IMG/VR virus record: IMGVR_UViG_3300009496_000035
Coordinates: 1-32,698 of that record
DNA length: 32,698 nucleotides
Origin: a virus
Direction: 5' to 3' (one strand)
The notes below the pieces were generated by a model, which searched no databases, was not told where the DNA came from, and saw only the letters and a list, made by a program, of their open reading frames with translations. Of this stretch, positions 5,091 through 30,884 are shown piece after piece. How positions within the stretch are numbered: position 1 is the stretch's first letter; each line of letters begins with the position of its first letter. A program made the position numbers and the translations under genes.

Positions 5091-5104
5091 TTTATTTAAA
5101 AACA
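5091..5104 (-). promoter_or_regulatory. 14-mer motif, copy 1, after a terminator
   Basis: Identical 14-mer, ending 8 bases before the ATG of the 126-residue gene ahead of the portal. It follows a strong intrinsic terminator (5133-5156), so expression of the portal unit has to restart here unless the terminator leaks. Confidence 0.65.
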
Positions 5105-7165: not shown

Positions 7166-7179
7166 TTTATTTAAAAACA
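7166..7179 (-). promoter_or_regulatory. 14-mer motif, copy 2, before the scaffold-like gene
   Basis: Identical 14-mer, 22 bases before the ATG; here the base after it is A instead of the usual G. A perfect inverted repeat AACAGATTTCTGTT lies 5 bases upstream at 7185-7198. Confidence 0.55.
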
Positions 7180-8505: not shown

Positions 8506-8519
8506 TTTATTTAAAAACA
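8506..8519 (-). promoter_or_regulatory. 14-mer motif, copy 3, before prohead protease
   Basis: Identical 14-mer, ending 8 bases before the ATG of the prohead protease, the first gene of the head module. Confidence 0.6.
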
Positions 8520-8522
8520 ATT

Positions 8523-11456
8523 TTATCCGAGACTTGCTTCGGTTTCTGTGTTGCGCTGTAATGCTTGAGTGCTCGTAACGTCTTCAGCTACTACATAGGC
8601 TCTCATGGGTCTATTGTTAGCTCCTGATATTGTACTGCCTAAAAAGTTAGCGTCATTGCTAGTCTGCCCTATAACATTAAAAGCGGGGGCTTGAATGGCC
8701 GCACCACCTCCTGATCCTCCAAAGTCTTGGCCCCCAAATCTAGAAGTGAGTTTTTTCATATCCTTCTTTTGCTTTGCCATGTTTTTGATCATCATACCCG
8801 CTTGAATTGCATACGTAGCCATAGTGATAGCATTCCATGGAGGTCCGAGTTTACTAGCGTTAGCCATACCCACCTGCAAAGATCCTTGTTGTTTTATTCC
8901 ATCTGCAGCCATTTCCATGTTAGACTCTGTCGCTTTTGCCTTCATTGTCATAGCTAGAGCCTTCATTTTCATAACGATCTCAGCTAGCATCATAGCCTGC
9001 TTCATTTTAAGCATTAACTGACCTATCTTTGACTCCTCACCTGAGGCCATTATAACAGCATCTAAGCCATCAGCTAAAGTTTGTTTTTTAAGCTCTAAAA
9101 TACGTGCATCCTCCTCTTGTTTTTTGATCATTCTGTCCTGATCTGCTTTAAAGCTTAGGTCAGCATAGTACTCTACAATACTTGCTTTTAACATCTCCTT
9201 CTCAGTAGTCGATACTTTCAGTTGTTCTAGCTCTAGTAAATGTGCCTCTTTTTGCTGTGCTAAGTTCTGAAGTGGATCGTCTGACTTTATCTTAAATTTA
9301 GCATCGAAGTCGTCAAATATTTTCTTTTTAGCTTCTTTATTTAATAGCTCCTGATCTATTACCTTTTGATTATATATAGCATTTATAGCTAGAGTGGCTT
9401 TACCCTTCTCATCGTCACTCATTTTATGCAGTTCTAACTCAGCTAAGTATTGTTTTCTTTTAACTTCAATAGCCTCTAGTTTAGTTTTAGCTTGCTGATC
9501 TTGTTCTAATTTTAACAGTTTTTTAAGAAACGCATTCTTAGCATTAAGTTCCTTATCTACTCCTCCCTTTTTAGCAACTCCTAGCTCATTAAGTCTTTTG
9601 ATCTCATTTTCTATACTCTCAATAAACTTATTCTTAGCTCTGATCTCAGCCTCTGTAGTTTCAGGCATAGCTTTACCAACGGCTAGCAATGCTTTTTGAG
9701 CTGCTATAAGACTACCTAGTTTCTTTGTAGCTTCACCATCGGCAAGTGTATTCTCATCTGTTAACTCAGTATTTTCGGCTATAGTCATTCCTAGATCCTC
9801 CATCAGGCCGTTTTTAGCTGATGTTAGAGAGCTTGTAATCTCCATAGATTTGTTATAGCTGTCTTGTGCTCTTTCAGTGCCTTTAAGGCCATTTCTAAGC
9901 CTTCTGTTAGCTATTTCTAGATCATTGAATGACATCTCAGTACGCTTAAGATGTATTTGCTGTTGCTGTGCTGCAGCTCGCTCCTGTAATGTGCCCTCAG
10001 TTTGTTCTAGATTGTGCTGTTTAGCGTTCTGAGCTATAGCATTCCTTAGTTGCATTTCATTCTCAAGCAAGGTCTTCTTATCCTTTGCTGCGTCATTTAA
10101 TGCCTCTTGTATCTCTTCGTCAGCCTCCTGAAGTATGATCTTATTAATTAACATCTCGTTAACTTCTCCAATAGCAGCACTTAATTGCTCGTTAGTGGCC
10201 TTCTCAGCGTCAATATTTTTTAAAAAGTCAGGATATTCCTTTTGTAGTTTTTCTATGATCTCAACACGATCACCCTCAGATGTATTTGTGTCTAGTAGTT
10301 GCCCCTCTAAAGCAAACAATGCAAAGCGCTCCTTATCTAGCTCTTCACTTAATAGTGTTGTGGGTGTTATAAAGCTTAATATTGCTGTAGTGGCCTGTAT
10401 AAAGCCTCTAGCTATTTTATTGAGCATTCCCTCACCGTCTTCTATAGATAGTAGAAATCCTTCCCATGCACTAGATAACTTAGTGGTATCACCTGCTAAA
10501 TTGTCTAGTTTTACCTCTGCCATTTTCTTAGCGGCTCCTTCAGCATCTAGAAATTTCTTCTCTAAGCCTGCAATGTCATCCTGTCCACTTGCTAGAGTAA
10601 GGAATGTTTTACCTGCTACAACACCTACCATATCAATAGCGGTATTAAGTGGATCTGCCGATTCTCTCACTTTTTTCATACCATCTGCCAATGATATACC
10701 CTTCTTGTTAAGCATTATAAAGGTCTTAGCTAGTCCCGTTCCTGCTATAGATCCCTTTAGTCCCCTATCTGCTAAAACCCCTAGTAAAGCCGTCGTTTTC
10801 TCTACAGATACGTTTGTAGCTTTTGATACAGGAGCGACTAACTTCAATGATTCTCTTAATGAGCTAAATGACAGTGCTGAGCTAGATGTACTCTTGGCCA
10901 TTACGTCTACAACCCTTTGAGTCTCTTTTGTTGATAAACCAAATGATTTGATTAATGATCCTGAAAACTCAGCTGCTTCTCCTAGATCAACTTCTAAAGA
11001 TGCTGCTAGATCTAATATTGCACCTGTTGAATTTTTAATATCATCAGTCTTGAAACCTAACTTTGCTAGCTCAGTTTGCAGTGATAATACCTCACTAGCG
11101 GTAAATGCTGTTGTGGCTCCTAATTGCTTAGCCTGATTACTAAGCTCACCCATTTCTGCCTTACTAGATCCTGTTACGGCCTCTAATGTAGATAGAGCCT
11201 TCTCAAATTGAGTTGACTTACTAAGTGCCGCTCCTAAGCCTGCTACTAAAGCACCTAATCCTACTACTAAAACCCCAACACCGCTCGATATAAGTGCCAT
11301 AGTCATAGACTTGATGCCTCCTGTTGCCGCTGTAGCTGAGGCCGCCACTCCTTTCAATGAAGTCGATAGTCCACCCGCTGCGGCTGTCCCTGCGTTTAAG
11401 CTAGTTGCTGCATTTGATGTAACCGACACATGAACTCTTCTAGTTTCTTTAGCCAT
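8523..11456 (-). CDS. Tail tape measure protein
   Basis: The longest gene, 977 residues. A hydrophobic segment rich in Gly/Ala/Val lies near the N-terminus (about residues 50-78). The region FEKALSTLEAVTGSSKAEMG ... LGFKTDDIKNSTGAILDLAA (about 84-150) matches the PhageMin_Tail tape-measure domain, followed by long Lys/Glu-rich helical stretches (about 380-800) and a Gly-rich C-terminus. The protein sets tail length and is ejected with DNA. Using the usual 0.15 nm per residue, the tail would be about 145 nm (inference). The ATG overlaps the stop of a 48-residue gene by one base. Confidence 0.9.
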   Translation of the reverse strand: MAKETRRVHVSVTSNAATSLNAGTAAAGGLSTSLKGVAASATAATGGIKSMTMALISSGVGVLVVGLGALVAGLGAALSKSTQFEKALSTLEAVTGSSKAEMGELSNQAKQLGATTAFTASEVLSLQTELAKLGFKTDDIKNSTGAILDLAASLEVDLGEAAEFSGSLIKSFGLSTKETQRVVDVMAKSTSSSALSFSSLRESLKLVAPVSKATNVSVEKTTALLGVLADRGLKGSIAGTGLAKTFIMLNKKGISLADGMKKVRESADPLNTAIDMVGVVAGKTFLTLASGQDDIAGLEKKFLDAEGAAKKMAEVKLDNLAGDTTKLSSAWEGFLLSIEDGEGMLNKIARGFIQATTAILSFITPTTLLSEELDKERFALFALEGQLLDTNTSEGDRVEIIEKLQKEYPDFLKNIDAEKATNEQLSAAIGEVNEMLINKIILQEADEEIQEALNDAAKDKKTLLENEMQLRNAIAQNAKQHNLEQTEGTLQERAAAQQQQIHLKRTEMSFNDLEIANRRLRNGLKGTERAQDSYNKSMEITSSLTSAKNGLMEDLGMTIAENTELTDENTLADGEATKKLGSLIAAQKALLAVGKAMPETTEAEIRAKNKFIESIENEIKRLNELGVAKKGGVDKELNAKNAFLKKLLKLEQDQQAKTKLEAIEVKRKQYLAELELHKMSDDEKGKATLAINAIYNQKVIDQELLNKEAKKKIFDDFDAKFKIKSDDPLQNLAQQKEAHLLELEQLKVSTTEKEMLKASIVEYYADLSFKADQDRMIKKQEEDARILELKKQTLADGLDAVIMASGEESKIGQLMLKMKQAMMLAEIVMKMKALAMTMKAKATESNMEMAADGIKQQGSLQVGMANASKLGPPWNAITMATYAIQAGMMIKNMAKQKKDMKKLTSRFGGQDFGGSGGGAAIQAPAFNVIGQTSNDANFLGSTISGANNRPMRAYVVAEDVTSTQALQRNTETEASLG

Positions 11457-11602
11457 TATCTGTATGTATTATTATATCTAAATTTCATGTATCTTTTAAG
11501 CTCGCTCCATGTCTCAGGATACTTATATAGTCCTTTAGCCACATTGACGGGATAGCTGTCTTGTTCTGTGGTCCTTAGTAGTTTTAGGATTATATCTATC
11601 AT
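11456..11602 (-). CDS. Small protein coupled to the tape measure gene (48 aa)
   Basis: A 48-residue frame, MIDIILKLLRTTEQDSYPVN ... ETWSELKRYMKFRYNNTYR, ending TAA at 11458-11456 and overlapping the tape-measure ATG by one base. A TGTTTTTAAATAAA motif lies 4 bases upstream of its ATG, so it probably carries the translation start for the tape measure unit. The protein is basic and partly helical. In many siphoviruses the gene just before the tape measure is a tail assembly chaperone, but at 48 residues this cannot be the usual protein. No family recognised. Confidence 0.6.
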   Translation of the reverse strand: MIDIILKLLRTTEQDSYPVNVAKGLYKYPETWSELKRYMKFRYNNTYR

Positions 11603-11606
11603 AGTC

Positions 11607-11620
11607 TTTATTTAAAAACA
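11607..11620 (-). promoter_or_regulatory. 14-mer motif, copy 4, before the tape measure unit
   Basis: Identical 14-mer, ending 4 bases before the ATG of the 48-residue gene that is coupled to the tape measure. A small hairpin (AACAC...GTGTT, 11617-11630) overlaps its upstream end, so its T-run could also serve a weak terminator. Confidence 0.6.
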
Positions 11621-11721
11621 CCGTAGTGTTATTCTAGTAGTATGTTAAAGTTATGTTAAAAGCTTGTGTATGTCAATTATTTTGTCGATATTCAAAACTT
11701 CTTTAAGTGAAACAGTAGCCT

Positions 11722-14121
11722 TTATGCAAAAGTCTCTATAAAATCACCACTTCTACCTATAACAGACCCTACCATGTCGATGTCTACGTCAGTATTAGGA
11801 GCTAATAAGTACCTAGAAATCAGTCCCGTGGATGCATCTACATAAGTGAAGTATATAGACTTAGTAAGGCTCTCATTCTCGATGTTCCTTGTTTGAGTTT
11901 CAAAGTGCTCTAGCTTAGAATTACCTACTAAAGTAAGATCCAATTTGGTTACTCCTGAAAGGTAGTTAGTTTCTAAGGAATTTATGTTATAGAATTTATT
12001 ACTTATTAGAAGCGTATCTGAAAGCTTTAAATTGATTAATTGAGACTGTGGTATATGAGCTGTCAACTTTACCTTGCGTTTATCTTCGTCAAACATTAAA
12101 GCTGTAGTACCTCTGTAGAAACTATGCCATAAGCCATTACCAAACATGTTAAAAGCAAACCTATACTCACTTAGTTCCTCACCAAAGTACAACCCTACGT
12201 CGCTGTATAGGCCTACAGGTGTTTCTAAGCCTACTTGATGCACATTTGATGGCATTGTATATACTGTGCTAGAAGATACCGTTGAGACCGTGTCAAAAGC
12301 TAATTGAGATACACTACCTGTAAATGTATCAGGCTTACATATATAAGTAAACATAGGCTTAATAGATTGTTCAGATCCACCTACGTCGCTAAATAACGTA
12401 TAACATACCCTGAAGTCATCGCCATTGCTAAGGTCATCTAAGGGCTCTATAGGAGATCTTTGATTCTTTATCTTAAAGTCATAAGCACTACCTGATAGCT
12501 TCGCACCTTCTTCTCCTATTAATTCGTATCTTATTTCACCGTAATTTCTACCATTAACAGCCTTGTATCCTTCTTCTAAGGCCAATACAGGCTCCTCGAA
12601 GCCCATTAACAAACTAGAGTATAAGTTAGGCTTATTAATATCATATCCTGATACATCCACATATTTTGTGATATCCTTAACAGATCCTTCACTCATGAAA
12701 TGATCATAGTGTTTAGTAGATATATTTAAGTCAGAGTCAACCTCAGCAATTACATTAAATTGTTTAAAAATAGAGGTTAAAAACTCCATTATAGTCATAG
12801 TAGGTAAGTTCTTTTGAGCGTCATAGGTATTAGCTGTCCCCACAAGAGCATCTGCTTCTAAAGATGAAGTTATCGTAGGATCGTAGTACCATGTTTTAAA
12901 GAGGTGGTTACCAACTTGATTAGGTATATACTCTTTATTATATCCTATTATTGATACCCTTATATCTACGCTAGGATTACTCTCTGACTCAACCTCAACC
13001 TGAAATATCGCAGGGTTTCTGTTTCCTAGTACTATAAAATCTTCAGTATACGCATCTGACTCACTTATTTCTCTAACTACCTGACCACCTACTTTCAATT
13101 TAATGTTTGCTGTAGTGTTAAAGATTCCCTTTACTCTTACCTGATATTTTCTGTCCTGTCCTAGCAGCATAGTCTCTTCACTTGGATCAAAAACAAAGCC
13201 ATTGCTGATCAGTTGAAAATCAGGAATAGAACCTGATAATAAAGTAAAGTTATTAGCTATAGTTGAATTAAGACTCCCTGATCTAGTTTTGTCTGTTTGG
13301 TGAAGCCAAAGATACAGCTCTCTTATGTAGTCAGATTCTAGTACTCCTGTGAAATTAAAGTTGTATCTAGTCTGTATTTTGTCTAATATAGCCCCTACTG
13401 AAAGAGCACCTATTACATCCTCTTCACGTATACCATAACCCACTGCATTTGTACCTCCTGAGTATGCTATATTTCTAGCTCCTTCAATACCTGTGGCCGC
13501 TGTAGATGAATCAGCTATATATCTCGCTTTTCTACTAGCTAAAGGGAACATTAAGTCCCTAGGGGTTTGGTTCTGTATTTCAGACACAAAATCAAAGCTG
13601 TCATCATATAGGTCAGTGAAGTCTAAATCATTTAACCTATCCTTACCAATTTGCCTAGATAGCTCAGATAATTTACCTATAAAAGTAATCTTATAGTGCA
13701 TAGCTACACCGTTGGCTATTCTAGCACCATCTATACGAATGTTTCCTACTTTGTAAGTAGTATTATTCATTATAATTTTAGCAGGTATAAGCTCTCTAGA
13801 GTCGATACCATTATTGATATCTATATTGTAGTTGTGTTTAAAGATCCTGTTGTTTTTCTTACTAGCAGGAACTGTGAAGGTTTTACTAAAATCAGTAAAT
13901 AACTTCTTAGGATCACTCATGTCTTTTACTACTGACTTGATACTAACCCCTTCGTCTCCAAACATATCTAAAATAGGAGTTTGAGTTACATCCACATTAA
14001 GGTTGTTGCTTGCATTCCATGCTACAGCATACGACTCCCATGAGTCAATTATATCACCCCAAGTCTCACCATTAGCAGGCTCAGGTATATTACCTATAAG
14101 TATTCTAATTGGTATCTTCAT
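11722..14121 (-). CDS. Large tail / baseplate protein
   Basis: A 799-residue protein. The segment DMSDPKKLFTDFSKTFTVPA followed by SKKNNRIFKHNYNIDINNGI (about residues 66-105) is a strongly conserved stretch of tail proteins in Bacteroidota phages and prophages. IKPMFTYICKP and VKLTAHIPQSQLINLKLSD (about 690) are further beta-rich parts. It probably builds the distal tail or tip, in the position of tail-associated lysin/baseplate hub genes of other siphoviruses. It overlaps the upstream 374-residue gene by one base (TAATG). After its stop the -1 frame stays open for another 24 codons (see findings). The role is inferred from family context. Confidence 0.65.
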   Translation of the reverse strand: MKIPIRILIGNIPEPANGETWGDIIDSWESYAVAWNASNNLNVDVTQTPILDMFGDEGVSIKSVVKDMSDPKKLFTDFSKTFTVPASKKNNRIFKHNYNIDINNGIDSRELIPAKIIMNNTTYKVGNIRIDGARIANGVAMHYKITFIGKLSELSRQIGKDRLNDLDFTDLYDDSFDFVSEIQNQTPRDLMFPLASRKARYIADSSTAATGIEGARNIAYSGGTNAVGYGIREEDVIGALSVGAILDKIQTRYNFNFTGVLESDYIRELYLWLHQTDKTRSGSLNSTIANNFTLLSGSIPDFQLISNGFVFDPSEETMLLGQDRKYQVRVKGIFNTTANIKLKVGGQVVREISESDAYTEDFIVLGNRNPAIFQVEVESESNPSVDIRVSIIGYNKEYIPNQVGNHLFKTWYYDPTITSSLEADALVGTANTYDAQKNLPTMTIMEFLTSIFKQFNVIAEVDSDLNISTKHYDHFMSEGSVKDITKYVDVSGYDINKPNLYSSLLMGFEEPVLALEEGYKAVNGRNYGEIRYELIGEEGAKLSGSAYDFKIKNQRSPIEPLDDLSNGDDFRVCYTLFSDVGGSEQSIKPMFTYICKPDTFTGSVSQLAFDTVSTVSSSTVYTMPSNVHQVGLETPVGLYSDVGLYFGEELSEYRFAFNMFGNGLWHSFYRGTTALMFDEDKRKVKLTAHIPQSQLINLKLSDTLLISNKFYNINSLETNYLSGVTKLDLTLVGNSKLEHFETQTRNIENESLTKSIYFTYVDASTGLISRYLLAPNTDVDIDMVGSVIGRSGDFIETFA

Positions 14122-17044: not shown

Positions 17045-17050
17045 TTGATC

Positions 17051-17064
17051 TTTATTTAAAAACA
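17051..17064 (-). promoter_or_regulatory. 14-mer motif, copy 5, before tail chaperone
   Basis: Identical 14-mer, ending 6 bases before the ATG of the tail assembly chaperone gene, the first gene of the tail module. Confidence 0.6.
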
Positions 17065-17107
17065 GGTCACTAGTAAATAAGTAGCCTCAAAAAAAATAAA
17101 AAAAAAA

Positions 17108-17140
17108 TTTGGAGTGTATATATATTAATTAGTATATTTG
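17108..17140 (+). promoter_or_regulatory. Possible forward-strand promoter
   Basis: TTTG (17108-17111), 21 bases, TATATTTG (17133-17140): a near-perfect Bacteroidota promoter, but on the plus strand, where there is no gene. AT-rich DNA can produce this by chance. It would start an RNA at the hairpin 17147-17175. Confidence 0.4.
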
Positions 17141-17145
17141 TCACG

Positions 17146-17216
17146 GTGCCCTAAAGTCAACGGTAAAATAGGGCATAAAAAACGAAACCCACAACTTAAT
17201 GCAGGTTTTATTTTCT
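17146..17216 (+). ncRNA. Candidate small RNA on the plus strand
   Basis: Downstream of the plus-strand promoter lie a 7-bp perfect hairpin (TGCCCTA/TAGGGCA, 17147-17175) and a weaker stem (AAACC/GGTTT, 17185-17208) followed by TTTTATTTTC, which would act as a terminator and give a roughly 70-base RNA. Both stems are also read from the minus strand, where they end the small-gene operon, so this could simply be a terminator region. Confidence 0.3.
17174..17208 (-). terminator. Terminator after the 63-aa gene
   Basis: AAACCT ... GGGTTT stem (17208-17185) followed by CGTTTTTT on the minus strand; just downstream lies a second, perfect 7-bp hairpin (17147-17175). Confidence 0.55.
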
Positions 17217-20823: not shown

Positions 20824-20837
20824 TTTATTTAAAAACA
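20824..20837 (-). promoter_or_regulatory. 14-mer motif TGTTTTTAAATAAA, copy 6, before terS
   Basis: Identical 14-mer, ending 15 bases before the small terminase ATG, preceded by the AT-rich end of the upstream intergenic stretch. Confidence 0.6.
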
Positions 20838-22536: not shown

Positions 22537-23163
22537 TTAAGCTATTGGATATAAATATCTTATCACTTCTGTACGGGGTTTCTTTAGCTTAACGTATGTT
22601 AGGGCATCAAATTCATCTCTAGCCTCTATATCTAAGTCATCTCTTTGCTGTCTAGCTTCGTCTTGAGCCATCATGGACCTCTCTACCTTTATAAATGTAC
22701 TAAGCTGATTGTTCATGAAAGAGTCAATACGATCCTGTGGAATGCCTTCTAGCATGTCCTCAATAGTTTGAACCCTTACAGCTTCTAGATCAGCTATTCT
22801 AGCCTTAAGGTCTACATTCTCGCTATATAGTACTTTATTATGCATCTCATAAGCGTCTAAGATAGTCTCAGAGGCATCCTTACAGTCTTTAAAATCTAAT
22901 CCACCTATTAGGCCATGTATTTCATTTACTCGTCTCTGAAGACCTGTATCCCATTCTATTTCTATCTTAAATTTCTTTATGCCGTGCATGATAGTTGCAT
23001 GATCTTTATTTAAGTATTTACCTATAGCGTAAAATGTCTGTCCTTGAGCTCTAGCAAAGTGATAAAATAAATTTCTAGCTTTTACATACTCTGTCTGCCT
23101 AGTGATCTTCATTAGATCCAAACCTGTTGAGGTTTCTACAGCTTTTCTTATAATGTCTAACAT
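22537..23163 (-). CDS. DnaA domain IV-like replication initiator protein
   Basis: About 208 residues from the ATG at 23163 (an in-frame ATG at 23202 would overlap the previous gene by 22 bases and adds only Lys/Asn-rich residues). The N-terminal 75 residues match the DNA-binding domain IV of bacterial DnaA: VKARNLFYHFARAQGQTFYA, then IGKYLNKDHATIMHGIKK, where DHATIMHG corresponds to the DnaA signature DHTTVxHA that reads DnaA boxes. The rest is an acidic coiled coil (about 100-170) with no ATPase domain. A perfect DnaA box lies in the putative origin at 29863-29872, so this protein may bind there and recruit or displace host factors. The operon ends here. Confidence 0.75.
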   Translation of the reverse strand: MLDIIRKAVETSTGLDLMKITRQTEYVKARNLFYHFARAQGQTFYAIGKYLNKDHATIMHGIKKFKIEIEWDTGLQRRVNEIHGLIGGLDFKDCKDASETILDAYEMHNKVLYSENVDLKARIADLEAVRVQTIEDMLEGIPQDRIDSFMNNQLSTFIKVERSMMAQDEARQQRDDLDIEARDEFDALTYVKLKKPRTEVIRYLYPIA

Positions 23164-24904: not shown

Positions 24905-25139
24905 AATTTACTTTAGGTTTTTTTTTAGATTCAACCTCCTTTGCGTCAATTATATTTGATACATGCAACAACTCGGACGCTAGTCTTTTGTATTGCTCAG
25001 GATCCTCTTTGTCTTTGCCTACGCTGTGAAGCCAATTAAGACGGTTTGCTAACTGATCTGCTAGATTTACTAGAGACGGCAGCTTCATTTTTCTAAGTTG
25101 GTTACTGTTTAGCTCCTTCATATATTTTATATAAGTCAT
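24894..25139 (-). CDS. Hypothetical helical protein (81 aa or 75 aa)
   Basis: An 81-residue protein, MTYIKYMKELNSNQLRKMKL ... SNIIDAKEVESKKKPKVNYGK. A second ATG at 25121 would give 75 residues and fewer bases of overlap with the previous gene. It is helical and ends in a basic tail. It overlaps the metallophosphoesterase start by 11 bases. No recognised function. Confidence 0.5.
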   Translation of the reverse strand: MTYIKYMKELNSNQLRKMKLPSLVNLADQLANRLNWLHSVGKDKEDPEQYKRLASELLHVSNIIDAKEVESKKKPKVNYGK

Positions 25140-25560
25140 CTATTAAATTAACCAAACAAGAACTACAATTAGTAACAACTCTCTTGCTTTTAAATAAGTG
25201 ATTGTAAATAGCTACCAACTCGTTTTGTACCTTAGAACTAACACTCGTAGGCCTTGGGTTAAAAAAACTTTCTAAGAAATCAAACTGATCATTTTCTAAA
25301 TTGTTTAGCTTCCTGTTAGGAAACAACTTATTTAGCTTCTCAGCTCTTGCAGAACAGCCACAGTCATCTACTACTGCGTCAACAACCGCCTTAATACCTG
25401 TAACCTCTGTAAAAGCCGTTACAATGTCTCCTAGGCCTTCTCTACCTGCTTCTCCTAGTATGTCTAGTACTACAGATTTTTTAACTCTAAGCTTCTGAGC
25501 TATCTTACCTGCTTTAAAACCTTCTTGGTGCAATTCAAATACTTTATCGTTAATATCCAT
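25102..25560 (-). CDS. HTH-containing Cys-rich protein (152 aa)
   Basis: A 152-residue protein from the ATG at 25560; the longer frame start at 25617 lies in the TTG of the upstream promoter and cannot be used by that transcript. The N-terminus FELHQEGFKAGKIAQKLRVK then KSVVLDIL (about residues 8-35) looks like a helix-turn-helix. A following segment GLGDIVTAFTEVTGIKAVVD and CGCSARAEKLNKLFPNRKLN (about 42-85) is a repeated theme in Bacteroidota phage proteins of unknown function. CSSC near the C-terminus could bind zinc with CGC. Promoter 25587-25617 lies just upstream, with a predicted start about 20 bases before the ATG. Confidence 0.55.
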   Translation of the reverse strand: MDINDKVFELHQEGFKAGKIAQKLRVKKSVVLDILGEAGREGLGDIVTAFTEVTGIKAVVDAVVDDCGCSARAEKLNKLFPNRKLNNLENDQFDFLESFFNPRPTSVSSKVQNELVAIYNHLFKSKRVVTNCSSCLVNLIDDLYKIYEGAKQ

Positions 25561-25586
25561 TTTTAAGGGTTTAATTATTAATATTG

Positions 25587-25617
25587 CGAATATATGTAAA
25601 ACAATTAACATACACAA
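25587..25617 (-). promoter_or_regulatory. Host-type promoter TTG-N20-TATATTCG before HTH gene
   Basis: TTG (25617-25615), exactly 20 bases, TATATTCG (25594-25587). The same -7 octamer and the same spacing as at 27573-27603. Confirms the ATG at 25560 as the start of the HTH gene. Confidence 0.65.
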
Positions 25618-25634: not shown

Positions 25635-26216
25635 TTATATTAAATCATAGTCTTTGTTGATGAAATCCTGATAATCTTCATGTAGTTGCTCAGCTATCAA
25701 CATCTTTGATCTTTTAATACTTAAATATATGGTCCTTATTCCTATCCCTGACTCCTCAGAAATTGTCCTGAAGCTTTTGCCTGAATCTAAGTAAGTTTTA
25801 AATAGTTTATAGTCAAACCAACTAGAGTTATTTTTTACAATTTGATACATTTTTAACTCTATAGCCTCTACTCCTAATTTCTCCTGATCAACACCCTCAT
25901 CTATAAAATTATATTTCTCCTCGAAGTCATATTGACTCCCTAGATAATTATATCTTAAATTAGACTTCTTTTTAATTGCATTAATAATTATAGATCTTAA
26001 AGTAAAAAACATATAGCCCCTAGATGCTTTGCCTTTGGTGTTAATTATTTTGTCAAAAAGATCATCATACCTAGATAGTCTTAAGTATGCCTCTTGCACA
26101 AAGTCTTCAGCGTAGTTGTATACTTCATTATTGTTGTTAGCTATGGCCCTAGCCATCTCTATATACTCGCTGTGATGTTGTGACAATATTTGTAATGCCT
26201 TGTTTTTGTTATTCAT
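25635..26216 (-). CDS. Sigma-70 family RNA polymerase sigma-like factor
   Basis: A 193-residue protein with region-2 features, NYAEDFVQEAYLRLSRYDDL (about 34-53) and SRGYMFFTLRSIIINAIKKK (about 65-84), and a region-4-like helix-turn-helix SFRTISEESGIGIRTIYLSI (about 148-167). Length and order fit an ECF-type or phage sigma factor, although the FVQEAY motif is only loosely like the canonical DxxQe. It begins one base after the helicase gene. It may redirect host RNA polymerase to the phage promoters whose upstream elements repeat in this genome. This link is inference. A simple transcription regulator with the same fold is an alternative. Confidence 0.7.
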   Translation of the reverse strand: MNNKNKALQILSQHHSEYIEMARAIANNNNEVYNYAEDFVQEAYLRLSRYDDLFDKIINTKGKASRGYMFFTLRSIIINAIKKKSNLRYNYLGSQYDFEEKYNFIDEGVDQEKLGVEAIELKMYQIVKNNSSWFDYKLFKTYLDSGKSFRTISEESGIGIRTIYLSIKRSKMLIAEQLHEDYQDFINKDYDLI

Positions 26217-27515: not shown

Positions 27516-27572
27516 AATTTATGCGCCTCTCTTAAAGGCTTGGGTTTTTGTTGTGGCTTTATTGCCGTTTTG

Positions 27573-27603
27573 CGAATATACGCAATTTTTAAATAATATG
27601 CAA
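27573..27603 (-). promoter_or_regulatory. Host-type promoter TTG-N20-TATATTCG before SSB-like gene
   Basis: TTG (27603-27601), exactly 20 bases, TATATTCG (27580-27573) fit the flavobacterial consensus. The mRNA leader to the ATG at 27515 would be about 50 bases with a short hairpin. Confidence 0.65.
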
Positions 27604-27675
27604 TCTTTTTACTACTTTTATTTTACCTACTTAATTTATAAACTACTTCATAGTCTCTTGTAAGCAATACCAGTG

Positions 27676-27747
27676 CTAGCTCCTCATTTCATGGATACAA
27701 CTAAATAATACCGCAGCTGCTAATGTTATTAAAAATATTTTATTCAT
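27676..27747 (-). CDS. Micro-lipoprotein (23 aa)
   Basis: A 23-residue frame: MNKIFLITLAAAVLFSC followed by IHEMRS. It has a positively charged start, a hydrophobic stretch and a perfect lipobox LFSC with Cys17, so the mature peptide would be a lipid-anchored heptapeptide. It starts one base after the ERF gene stop. Such small lipoproteins in phages can block superinfection or serve as spanin-like lysis factors; the sequence does not decide. Because it is so short it could also be a chance frame, but the complete lipobox is striking. Confidence 0.5.
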   Translation of the reverse strand: MNKIFLITLAAAVLFSCIHEMRS

Positions 27748-27748
27748 G

Positions 27749-29215: not shown

Positions 29216-29617
29216 CTAAAAGTTTTGATCTTTTTTTACTTCTGCCAATTTGTCCCTGAAGGTCTCAAATATTTCCATGTATTCAAAATCTGCTAATTTA
29301 AAGATCTGTTTAGATTTGATCAGTAATTGTTCTGAAAGATCAGATCCTAGCTTTAAAGAGTACTCATACTGTCTGCCATATTGAAATCTATTGCATTTTC
29401 GACACTGCGCATATACATTCTCCTCGTCCCATCTTGTAGATAAAGCTCCTCGGCCTATGAAATGGCCTGCGTCTGACTCTGTGAAGTGAATAGGTTTATT
29501 ACATGAAACGCATTTGCAGTAACCTGAGTTGTTATCTGCGTCACGTCTCCTTATATACTCGTGAAATGGTTTGTCAATTTTAGTTTTCCAATACTTTAAA
29601 GTTTTTTTCTTTGCCAT
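29216..29617 (-). CDS. ninG: NinG / Rap-like recombination endonuclease
   Basis: A 133-residue protein: YCKCVSCNK (Cys34, Cys36, Cys39), DAGHFIGRGALSTRWDEENV (about 49-68) and CRKCNRF (Cys72, Cys75). This matches the lambda NinG/Rap family, which has a zinc-binding HNH-like core that resolves recombination intermediates (Rap cuts D-loops and Holliday junctions). It is the first gene downstream of the putative origin and early in the DNA-metabolism operon. A TGTTTTTAAATAAA motif lies about 100 bases upstream, the only copy not near a start codon. Confidence 0.85.
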   Translation of the reverse strand: MAKKKTLKYWKTKIDKPFHEYIRRRDADNNSGYCKCVSCNKPIHFTESDAGHFIGRGALSTRWDEENVYAQCRKCNRFQYGRQYEYSLKLGSDLSEQLLIKSKQIFKLADFEYMEIFETFRDKLAEVKKDQNF

Positions 29618-29714
29618 TGTTGTAGTTTTAGATAGTAGGCCCTGTAGTAAAAACCCTAATAAAAACTATAAGGCCCTAAACACTATCTTAGAAGTAAATT
29701 ATGAAAAAACTCCC

Positions 29715-29728
29715 TTTATTTAAAAACA
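29715..29728 (-). promoter_or_regulatory. 14-mer motif TGTTTTTAAATAAA, copy 7 (away from a start)
   Basis: Perfect copy of the repeated motif, the only one with no start codon within 25 bases; the nearest gene is ninG, about 100 bases downstream. It lies at the edge of the putative origin, so it may have a transcription rather than a translation role. Confidence 0.5.
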
Positions 29729-29901
29729 ATATTTTAGTAGCTTATAACCATGTTGACAACTCAGGATAACTTTAGTGGCATTTGTAGTTTTTTTTCTGTA
29801 CCTTCGTTTTATACTTCTCCCTAAGAAATCAGTATCTTTTTATTTACATTATCCTTAAAATATTATCCACAACAAAAAAGCTGCTTTAGTAGTTTGGTAA
29901 A

Positions 29902-29946
29902 GGATTACAAATACGTGGATTACAAATATCAGGATTACGGTATTGC
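29902..29946 (+). repeat. Three tandem 15-base iterons
   Basis: GGATTACAAATACGT, GGATTACAAATATCA, GGATTACGGTATTGC: the first seven bases are identical in all three; the first two share 12 of 15 bases. Typical of initiator binding sites. Confidence 0.75.
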
Positions 29947-29977
29947 GGCTTCTGCTTATATATGTGATATAGGTTAA

Positions 29978-30454
29978 TTATGTTTTATCCTTAACTGTTT
30001 TCATGATCTTTTCAATGCCTCTAGATCCAAAGTAAAAAATAGTCATAGTGCCAAATAAAGACTGTATAACAGGAATGTAAGCTTTATCCACTACAAAGGC
30101 CCCTACGTTGCCGTCTAATAATACTACAGATAAAAATAGTATAAACATAGCTCCATAAGTCACAGGTCTAACTAGACGTGTAATAGTATGCTCATTATCC
30201 ATACCTAGACGCTTAGTAACCTCAACCATTTCGATCATATCATTCTCCATCTCTTGAAGTAAAAGTGACTTATCAGCTTCTGCTAGACTCTTATCTCCTC
30301 GTATAGCGTCTCCTAAGGTACTTAATTGTTTTATACCCGTGATATTACCTGCTAGATTTAAAATCTCAGGAGAAACGCTCTTACCTTGCTTTACTAGCCA
30401 CCTAAGTGCGTCTCCAACTCTAGTAGTTCCTTTTTTGTCTTTGTAGTCACTCAT
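29978..30454 (-). CDS. Holin (GTA-type, two or three membrane segments)
   Basis: A 158-residue protein starting at the ATG at 30454, which overlaps the amidase stop as ATGAGTGA (8 bases). An in-frame TTG at 30478 is not needed. The N-terminal 80 residues are polar, with a helical LLLQEMENDMIEMVEVTK near the middle. Two hydrophobic segments follow: VTYGAMFILFLSVVLLDG (about 98-115) and PVIQSLFGTMTIFYFG (about 128-143). The layout and the FYFGSRGIEK end resemble the GTA_holin_3TM family, which makes lethal membrane lesions for endolysin release. It follows the amidase gene directly, the usual lysis cassette. Confidence 0.7.
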   Translation of the reverse strand: MSDYKDKKGTTRVGDALRWLVKQGKSVSPEILNLAGNITGIKQLSTLGDAIRGDKSLAEADKSLLLQEMENDMIEMVEVTKRLGMDNEHTITRLVRPVTYGAMFILFLSVVLLDGNVGAFVVDKAYIPVIQSLFGTMTIFYFGSRGIEKIMKTVKDKT

Positions 30455-30884
30455 ATTCACAGTTTTTAAAGTAGTCAATTATGTAGTCGTATTCTTTTTG
30501 TACGTCAAATGAAGGGCACGCCTTAGAGCTAAACTCATTGTGTCCGTGTAGTGTGCTATTCGGGTATGTATCCATCAAATCAATTATAAGAGACTCTAAG
30601 CGTCCCTTTTGATTTTCTGTCCTTGTGTCTTTGGGGTTCATTTTAGAGTCAACACCGCCAACGTATGTAATCCCTATAGATCCCTTATTGTGTCCTCTTA
30701 CGTGCGCGCCTTGTCTTTTAACAGGCCGTCCTTCGTGTAGGTCTCCTTTTAAGTCTATTATGTAGTGATATCCTATATCTGACCATCCACGATCTAAATG
30801 CCACTTTTTTATAGTGCCTACAGATACATCTCTACCCTCAGGTGTTGCTGTGCAATGAATTATGATCTTATTGATGTCTCTCAT
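30447..30884 (-). CDS. N-acetylmuramoyl-L-alanine amidase (T7 lysozyme-like endolysin)
   Basis: A 145-residue protein with the zinc ligands of T7-type amidases: His10 (in IIIHCTATP), His115 (in LHGHNEF) and Cys123 (in KACPSF), with the same 8-residue spacing between the last two as in T7 lysozyme. Tyr39 (GYHYIID) and Lys121 correspond to the catalytic Tyr46 and Lys128 of T7. It cleaves the amide bond between muramic acid and the peptide. The single catalytic domain has no cell-wall binding domain, as is usual for Gram-negative hosts. The gene overlaps the upstream membrane protein by 17 bases and the holin by 8. Confidence 0.9.
   Translation of the reverse strand: MRDINKIIIHCTATPEGRDVSVGTIKKWHLDRGWSDIGYHYIIDLKGDLHEGRPVKRQGAHVRGHNKGSIGITYVGGVDSKMNPKDTRTENQKGRLESLIIDLMDTYPNSTLHGHNEFSSKACPSFDVQKEYDYIIDYFKNCEYE

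Follow-up and report, generated by a model that had tools for sequence, protein, structure and literature searches.

A probable control region between the lysis and replication genes of an uncultured marine phage: promoter-like box, covarying NinG leader, and clade-specific repeats

What does a 360-bp stretch do between the lysis genes and the replication/recombination genes of a phage? The sequence analyzed here, a 32,698-bp virus record that we call the window, has nearly all of its recognizable genes on the minus strand, and the stretch in question (29618–29977) is bordered by the holin stop at 29978 and the NinG ATG at 29617. The initial annotation described it as the only long non-coding region and as a putative origin, with a perfect DnaA box that a DnaA domain IV (DnaA-IV) protein of the phage would read. 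The first description is roughly right: other gaps of 170–475 bp exist, and most contain small ORFs, but those at 17045–17215 and 27516–27748 are likewise empty. As to function we favor another answer, to which we give a probability of about 0.6: the 360 bp form a control region between lysis and replication/recombination genes, made up of a promoter box, a hairpin leader, and a repeat array.

Much of the argument is comparative. We located 49 related loci among viral contigs, and in most of them the genes follow the order amidase, holin, gap, NinG, Erf, SSB-like, DnaB-like, sigma-like, HTH, phosphoesterase, DnaA-IV, exonuclease, and terminase. The features of the window are collected in Table 1. 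No intrinsic terminator was found in the gap.

Table 1. Coordinates of the features discussed, numbered from the first letter of the window
Feature	Position	Strand	Evidence or remark
Holin/NinG intergenic region, putative control region	29618–29977	.	No gene-strand ORF of ≥25 aa; same position in relatives
Holin	29978–30478	-	phrog_3427, 2.1e-6; start codon uncertain
NinG/Rap-type endonuclease, first gene after the hairpin	29216–29617	-	Pfam NinG, 1.5e-14
DnaB_C-like helicase/ATPase, 311 aa	26218–27153	-	DnaB_C, 9.4e-8; phrog_18375, 6.7e-39
Sigma-factor-like phage protein, candidate reader of the promoter box	25635–26216	-	phrog_1740, 3.8e-8; Sigma70_r2, 0.0016, below cut-off
DnaA domain IV protein of 221 aa without AAA+, C-terminal part of long helices	22537–23202	-	Pfam Bac_DnaA_C, 2.3e-8
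TGTTTTTAAATAAA copies	5091–5104, 7166–7179, 8506–8519, 11607–11620, 17051–17064, 20824–20837, 29715–29728	-	Exact match
TGTTTTTAAATAAA, NinG copy	29715–29728	-	97 nt 5' of the NinG ATG; present 5' of NinG in relatives
Bulged hairpin in the NinG leader, loop with TAGGGTTT	29631–29687	-	Covariance model (29632–29686), 45.6 bits, the window row being part of the model's own alignment
TACCTTCG, candidate -7 element of an opposite-strand host-type promoter	29799–29806	+	Full version in relatives
TTATCCACAA, perfect DnaA box	29863–29872	+	Sequence match; absent from homologous gaps
Three GGATTAC (GTAATCC on the gene strand) in 15-bp steps	29902–29938	+	Starts at 29902, 29917, 29932
TTATCC/TWATCC site cluster, partly within the holin gene	29764–30200	.	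Shuffle test

The perfect DnaA box is present, and the gap contains TTATCCACA once, but there is no enrichment of the full box: TTATNCACA, with two occurrences in the window against 1.8 expected, is at chance level, and full DnaA boxes were rejected as a signal for that reason. An origin of the oriC type would be expected to hold a cluster of boxes that relatives conserve. Here one-mismatch boxes show no clustering in the window (p = 0.35 to 0.60), and TTATNCACA is missing from the homologous gaps of about 20 relatives that share the gene order. The relatives overall carry just 17 copies in 625 kb, or 0.9 per 32.7 kb. The proposal that the box is a conserved origin element is not supported. 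Comparative sequence lends no support to the step from encoding a DnaA-IV protein to reading a DnaA box at this place.

The protein itself is a different matter. The initial annotation placed its gene at 23163–22537; the gene is real, but the start is more likely 23202, because relatives align upstream of residue 14. The 221-aa product passes the curated Bac_DnaA_C cut-off (34.4 bits against 31.5), no other family exceeds its own cut-off, and the AAA+ ATPase domain of a full-length DnaA initiator is absent. A profile built from ten relatives matches DnaA crystal structures. Confidence in the AlphaFold model is moderate (mean pLDDT 69, with blocks of 75–89 over residues 11–100), and the model's N-terminal domain superposes on the DNA-bound DnaA domain IV structures 3pvp and 1j1v with a TM score of 0.82–0.84 (target length) and an rmsd of 1.3–1.5 Å. 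Pfam, the relatives' profile, and the superposition all agree that this is a protein with the DnaA DNA-binding signature and no AAA+ domain. Its relatives are 32–41% identical to it, and R35, R43, R51, H68, and T70 are invariant across the alignment. In E. coli numbering the recognition residues of DnaA are R399, R407, K415, H434, T435, and T436; the position of T435 is alanine in all aligned relatives.

Such proteins are already known in phages, contrary to the suggestion that no phage system of this form had been described. They are annotated as DnaA_C-domain proteins without AAA+ in Cellulophaga phage phi46:1 (gp40) and Olleya phage Harreka_1 (gp24), they are found in the pelagiphages HTVC034P (gp20), Greip (gp42), and Skadi-4, and PHROGs has a named family for the stand-alone domain (PHROG 27829). 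Their genes, as in the window, are part of an early/replication module that also includes recombination genes, and in the pelagiphages they adjoin a nuclease and an annealing protein. The window protein differs from them in its longer C-terminal helical part. Its identity to the Harreka_1 protein is low, at about 39% over part of the domain; tblastn with the whole protein gave no match among isolate phages, and the domain alone gave weak ones. We found no paper in the open-licence literature that describes the function of a stand-alone phage DnaA-IV protein. DnaA-box clusters are absent from seven isolate phages, of which five have an annotated DnaA-IV protein and two a weak candidate.

The nearest isolates by terminase, at 52% identity to the window, are the Nonlabens phages P12024S and P12024L (Inhavirus), which share with it the holin, the metallophosphoesterase, and the ERF gene; unlike the window, they have neither the TGTTTTTAAATAAA box nor the hairpin. 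A hypothetical protein of P12024S/L (gp17 of P12024S; 11277–11738 of locus L003) shows a weak match to the DnaA-IV profile (1e-4) and none to Pfam.

What, then, does the locus conserve? One answer is TGTTTTTAAATAAA, which occurs as an exact match seven times in the window, each time on the gene strand and never on the plus strand, when about 0.015 copies of its 12-mer core would be expected; the count of near matches was reached in none of 100 shuffles. Six of the seven copies end 4–22 nt before an ATG. The genes behind them include those for the terminase small subunit, an XkdF-type protease, and other late proteins, and one copy precedes a 48-aa ORF upstream of a 977-aa gene. Relatives carry the box before homologous genes, so that it is common to late transcription units, as a late promoter should be. 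An exact-match scan of viral contigs was uninformative, returning, among the matches listed, mostly single sites in unrelated contigs.

We infer that TGTTTTTAAATAAA is probably a late promoter read by the phage's own sigma factor. The late promoters of T4 (TATAAATA) are read by the phage sigma factor gp55, and the window resembles T4 in having an AT-rich -10-like box before late genes together with a sigma-like gene. Given that protein and the box, a T4-type late promoter would be the simplest reading. Its consensus is longer than that of T4, and the link to the sigma factor is a predicted one, the sigma-like protein having been identified by weak profile matches only. The very short distance of most copies from an ATG would also suit a translation signal, but the NinG copy, farther from its start codon (Table 1), speaks against this.

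The other conserved element lies between that copy and the NinG ATG. Here the window and its relatives share a hairpin plan: an outer stem of 5–7 bp, a bulge of 4–7 nt on the 5' side only, an inner stem of 7–11 bp, and a loop of 15–20 nt with TAGGGTTT or TGGGGTTT. In stems dissected by hand, 94.7% of stem cells are paired within phages, compared with 68% (maximum 80%) when arms are swapped between them. In the model-based alignment, each of the 14 hairpin pairs has both-sided changes, and pairing of the inner helix amounts to 95.6%. No measure was equaled in 500 shuffles, and slid versions score far lower; this pair count is biased towards the model's own structure, and the arm-swap test agrees with it. 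The outer helix is 57.5% paired by a fixed-column count, which underrates it because the length of the bulge varies. In the L021 clade the minimum-energy fold retains the inner stem only, and the outer stem is assigned by analogy. The covariance model gives a single significant hit at each locus, in every case 5' of NinG. The stems of the hairpin covary among homologues, as those of a structured RNA leader should, and Rfam holds no match at gathering thresholds or at E ≤ 1. The hairpin probably controls NinG expression.

Is the loop involved in pairing elsewhere? In the L005–L019 clade, AAACCCT, which is the complement of the loop sequence AGGGTTT, clusters immediately upstream of start codons, and a clade with the loop GGGGTTT has some AAACCCC leaders. 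In the window the pattern is weak, with one of six AAACCCT copies in leaders (25587–25617). Pairing between the loop and gene leaders is possible.

Several relatives have just 90–110 bp or so between holin and NinG, and that space is occupied by the promoter-like box and the hairpin. In four others (L009, L017, L019, and L043) the repeats lie 3' of NinG, and the box and hairpin remain at NinG; they therefore form a unit with NinG and not with the repeats. Set against the window, L021, L028, and L035, these four loci have the order of the box-hairpin-NinG unit and the repeat region swapped.

The repeat half of the gap is more variable. The "three 15-base iterons" of the initial annotation are there as three GGATTAC motifs at exact 15-bp steps, an arrangement seen nowhere else in the window and in one of 40 shuffled windows, but the full 15-base repeat is only partial: copies 1 and 2 are 80% identical, and copy 3 has little in common with them beyond GGATTAC. 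Regularly spaced direct repeats of this kind are what an iteron-type origin would contain. The reported TTATCC half-sites do form a non-random cluster near the gap, with 6 of the 13 TTATCC/GGATAA copies of the window between 29764 and 30200 (0 of 300 shuffles; p < 0.01) and nine TWATCC sites in 450 bp, but half of the clustered TTATCC sites (three) are in or at the holin gene. These p values are optimistic, because TTATCC was picked as the motif that the initial annotation had named and TWATCC after looking. Among relatives, repeat content at the locus is significantly high in most, and the repeats are specific to the clade (AACTTC, AGTTAC, CCACTA, GAGTCA, and others). In phage lambda, the O protein acts at iterons that lie inside the initiator gene O itself. 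The window resembles a lambda-type origin in having short direct repeats near replication genes; its repeats differ from lambda's in lying 6.5 kb from the DnaA-IV gene and in varying between relatives.

Promoter-like sequences also occur on this side. Four relatives (L028, L029, L035, and L042) have a full TTG-N20-TACCTTCG on the opposite strand at an identical distance from NinG, and the window keeps TACCTTCG with a degenerate -33 part; the direction is into the repeats. Elsewhere in the window, sequences like host-type early promoters, TTGCATAT...TATATTCG and TTGTGTAT...TATATTCG, lie on the minus strand before the SSB-like and HTH genes (27573–27603 and 25587–25617).

What might bind the repeats? 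A replication origin in 29618–29977 is possible, as yet unsupported. If the repeat half were the origin, the DnaA-IV protein would bind the TWATCC/GTAATCC array and recruit the DnaB-like helicase or host DnaA. The non-random TTATCC cluster fits this, as do the DnaA fold of the protein with most of its residues at DNA-contact positions, the presence of repeats at the locus in most relatives, and the lack of any other recognized initiator among the proteins scanned. Nonetheless we consider it unlikely, given that the gaps of relatives are without the box, that other phages with DnaA-IV proteins are without box clusters, and that half of the TTATCC sites are in or at the holin gene. Related iteron cores (ACTTCTACT) occur, moreover, both in L019, whose nearest relatives carry the DnaA-IV gene, and in L028, on whose contig no such gene could be detected between the lysis genes and a point beyond TerL. 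Neither GC skew nor four-fold-site skew has a step at 29.6–30 kb, a result that is uninformative because all genes run one way. The helicase called DnaB-like in the initial annotation does match DnaB_C, but the match is confined to residues 27–125; the early proteins scanned yielded neither a primase nor a polymerase, and the absence of relatives of the DnaB-like protein in bacterial genomes gives no host or prophage clue. The stretch 23775–24179 matches the N-terminal domain of dATP/dGTP diphosphohydrolase (PF18909, 6.9e-10), a family from the nucleotide metabolism of phages with modified DNA. More doubtful still is a joint and more detailed proposal, in which an ATPase-less DnaA would dimerize through its C-terminal helices, read a TWATCC/GTAATCC array that drifts between clades along with the protein, and start replication by handing the site to the DnaB_C-type helicase.

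The repeats may instead be operators for the DnaA-IV protein or for the HTH protein (25102–25617), controlling early and lysis promoters. Cellular DnaA also acts as a transcription factor, a role that DnaA-IV would share, and the operator reading is a more specific form of our explanation for the repeat half. The repeats adjoin promoter-like sequences in the window and in relatives, and their sequences are clade-specific, which is frequent in operators; we regard the proposal as tentative, well short of an even chance. That host DnaA binds the lone TTATCCACA, through which the phage would sense or borrow host initiation, seems very improbable: the sequence matches the cellular consensus perfectly, but there is one box only, at chance frequency and not conserved.

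The control region that we favor would therefore be read in two halves. On the NinG side, the phage-specific box TGTTTTTAAATAAA would be used by the phage's own sigma factor, and the leader of about 97 nt that follows it would fold into the bulged hairpin before the NinG ATG and tune NinG expression. The other half would consist of clade-specific repeats (here TWATCC/GTAATCC), probably bound by a regulator or initiator that the phage encodes, with a possible promoter on the opposite strand.

Stand-alone phage DnaA-IV proteins are widespread and, in the genomes checked, are found without DnaA-box clusters; the covarying NinG leader, absent from Rfam, is the more interesting find. Attention shifts from a DnaA box at chance level to two conserved elements that are directly testable. 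One is a probable late-promoter consensus for an uncultured group of marine phages, flavobacterial-type by its nearest isolates, and the other is a covarying RNA leader, previously undescribed and linked to the NinG recombination nuclease.
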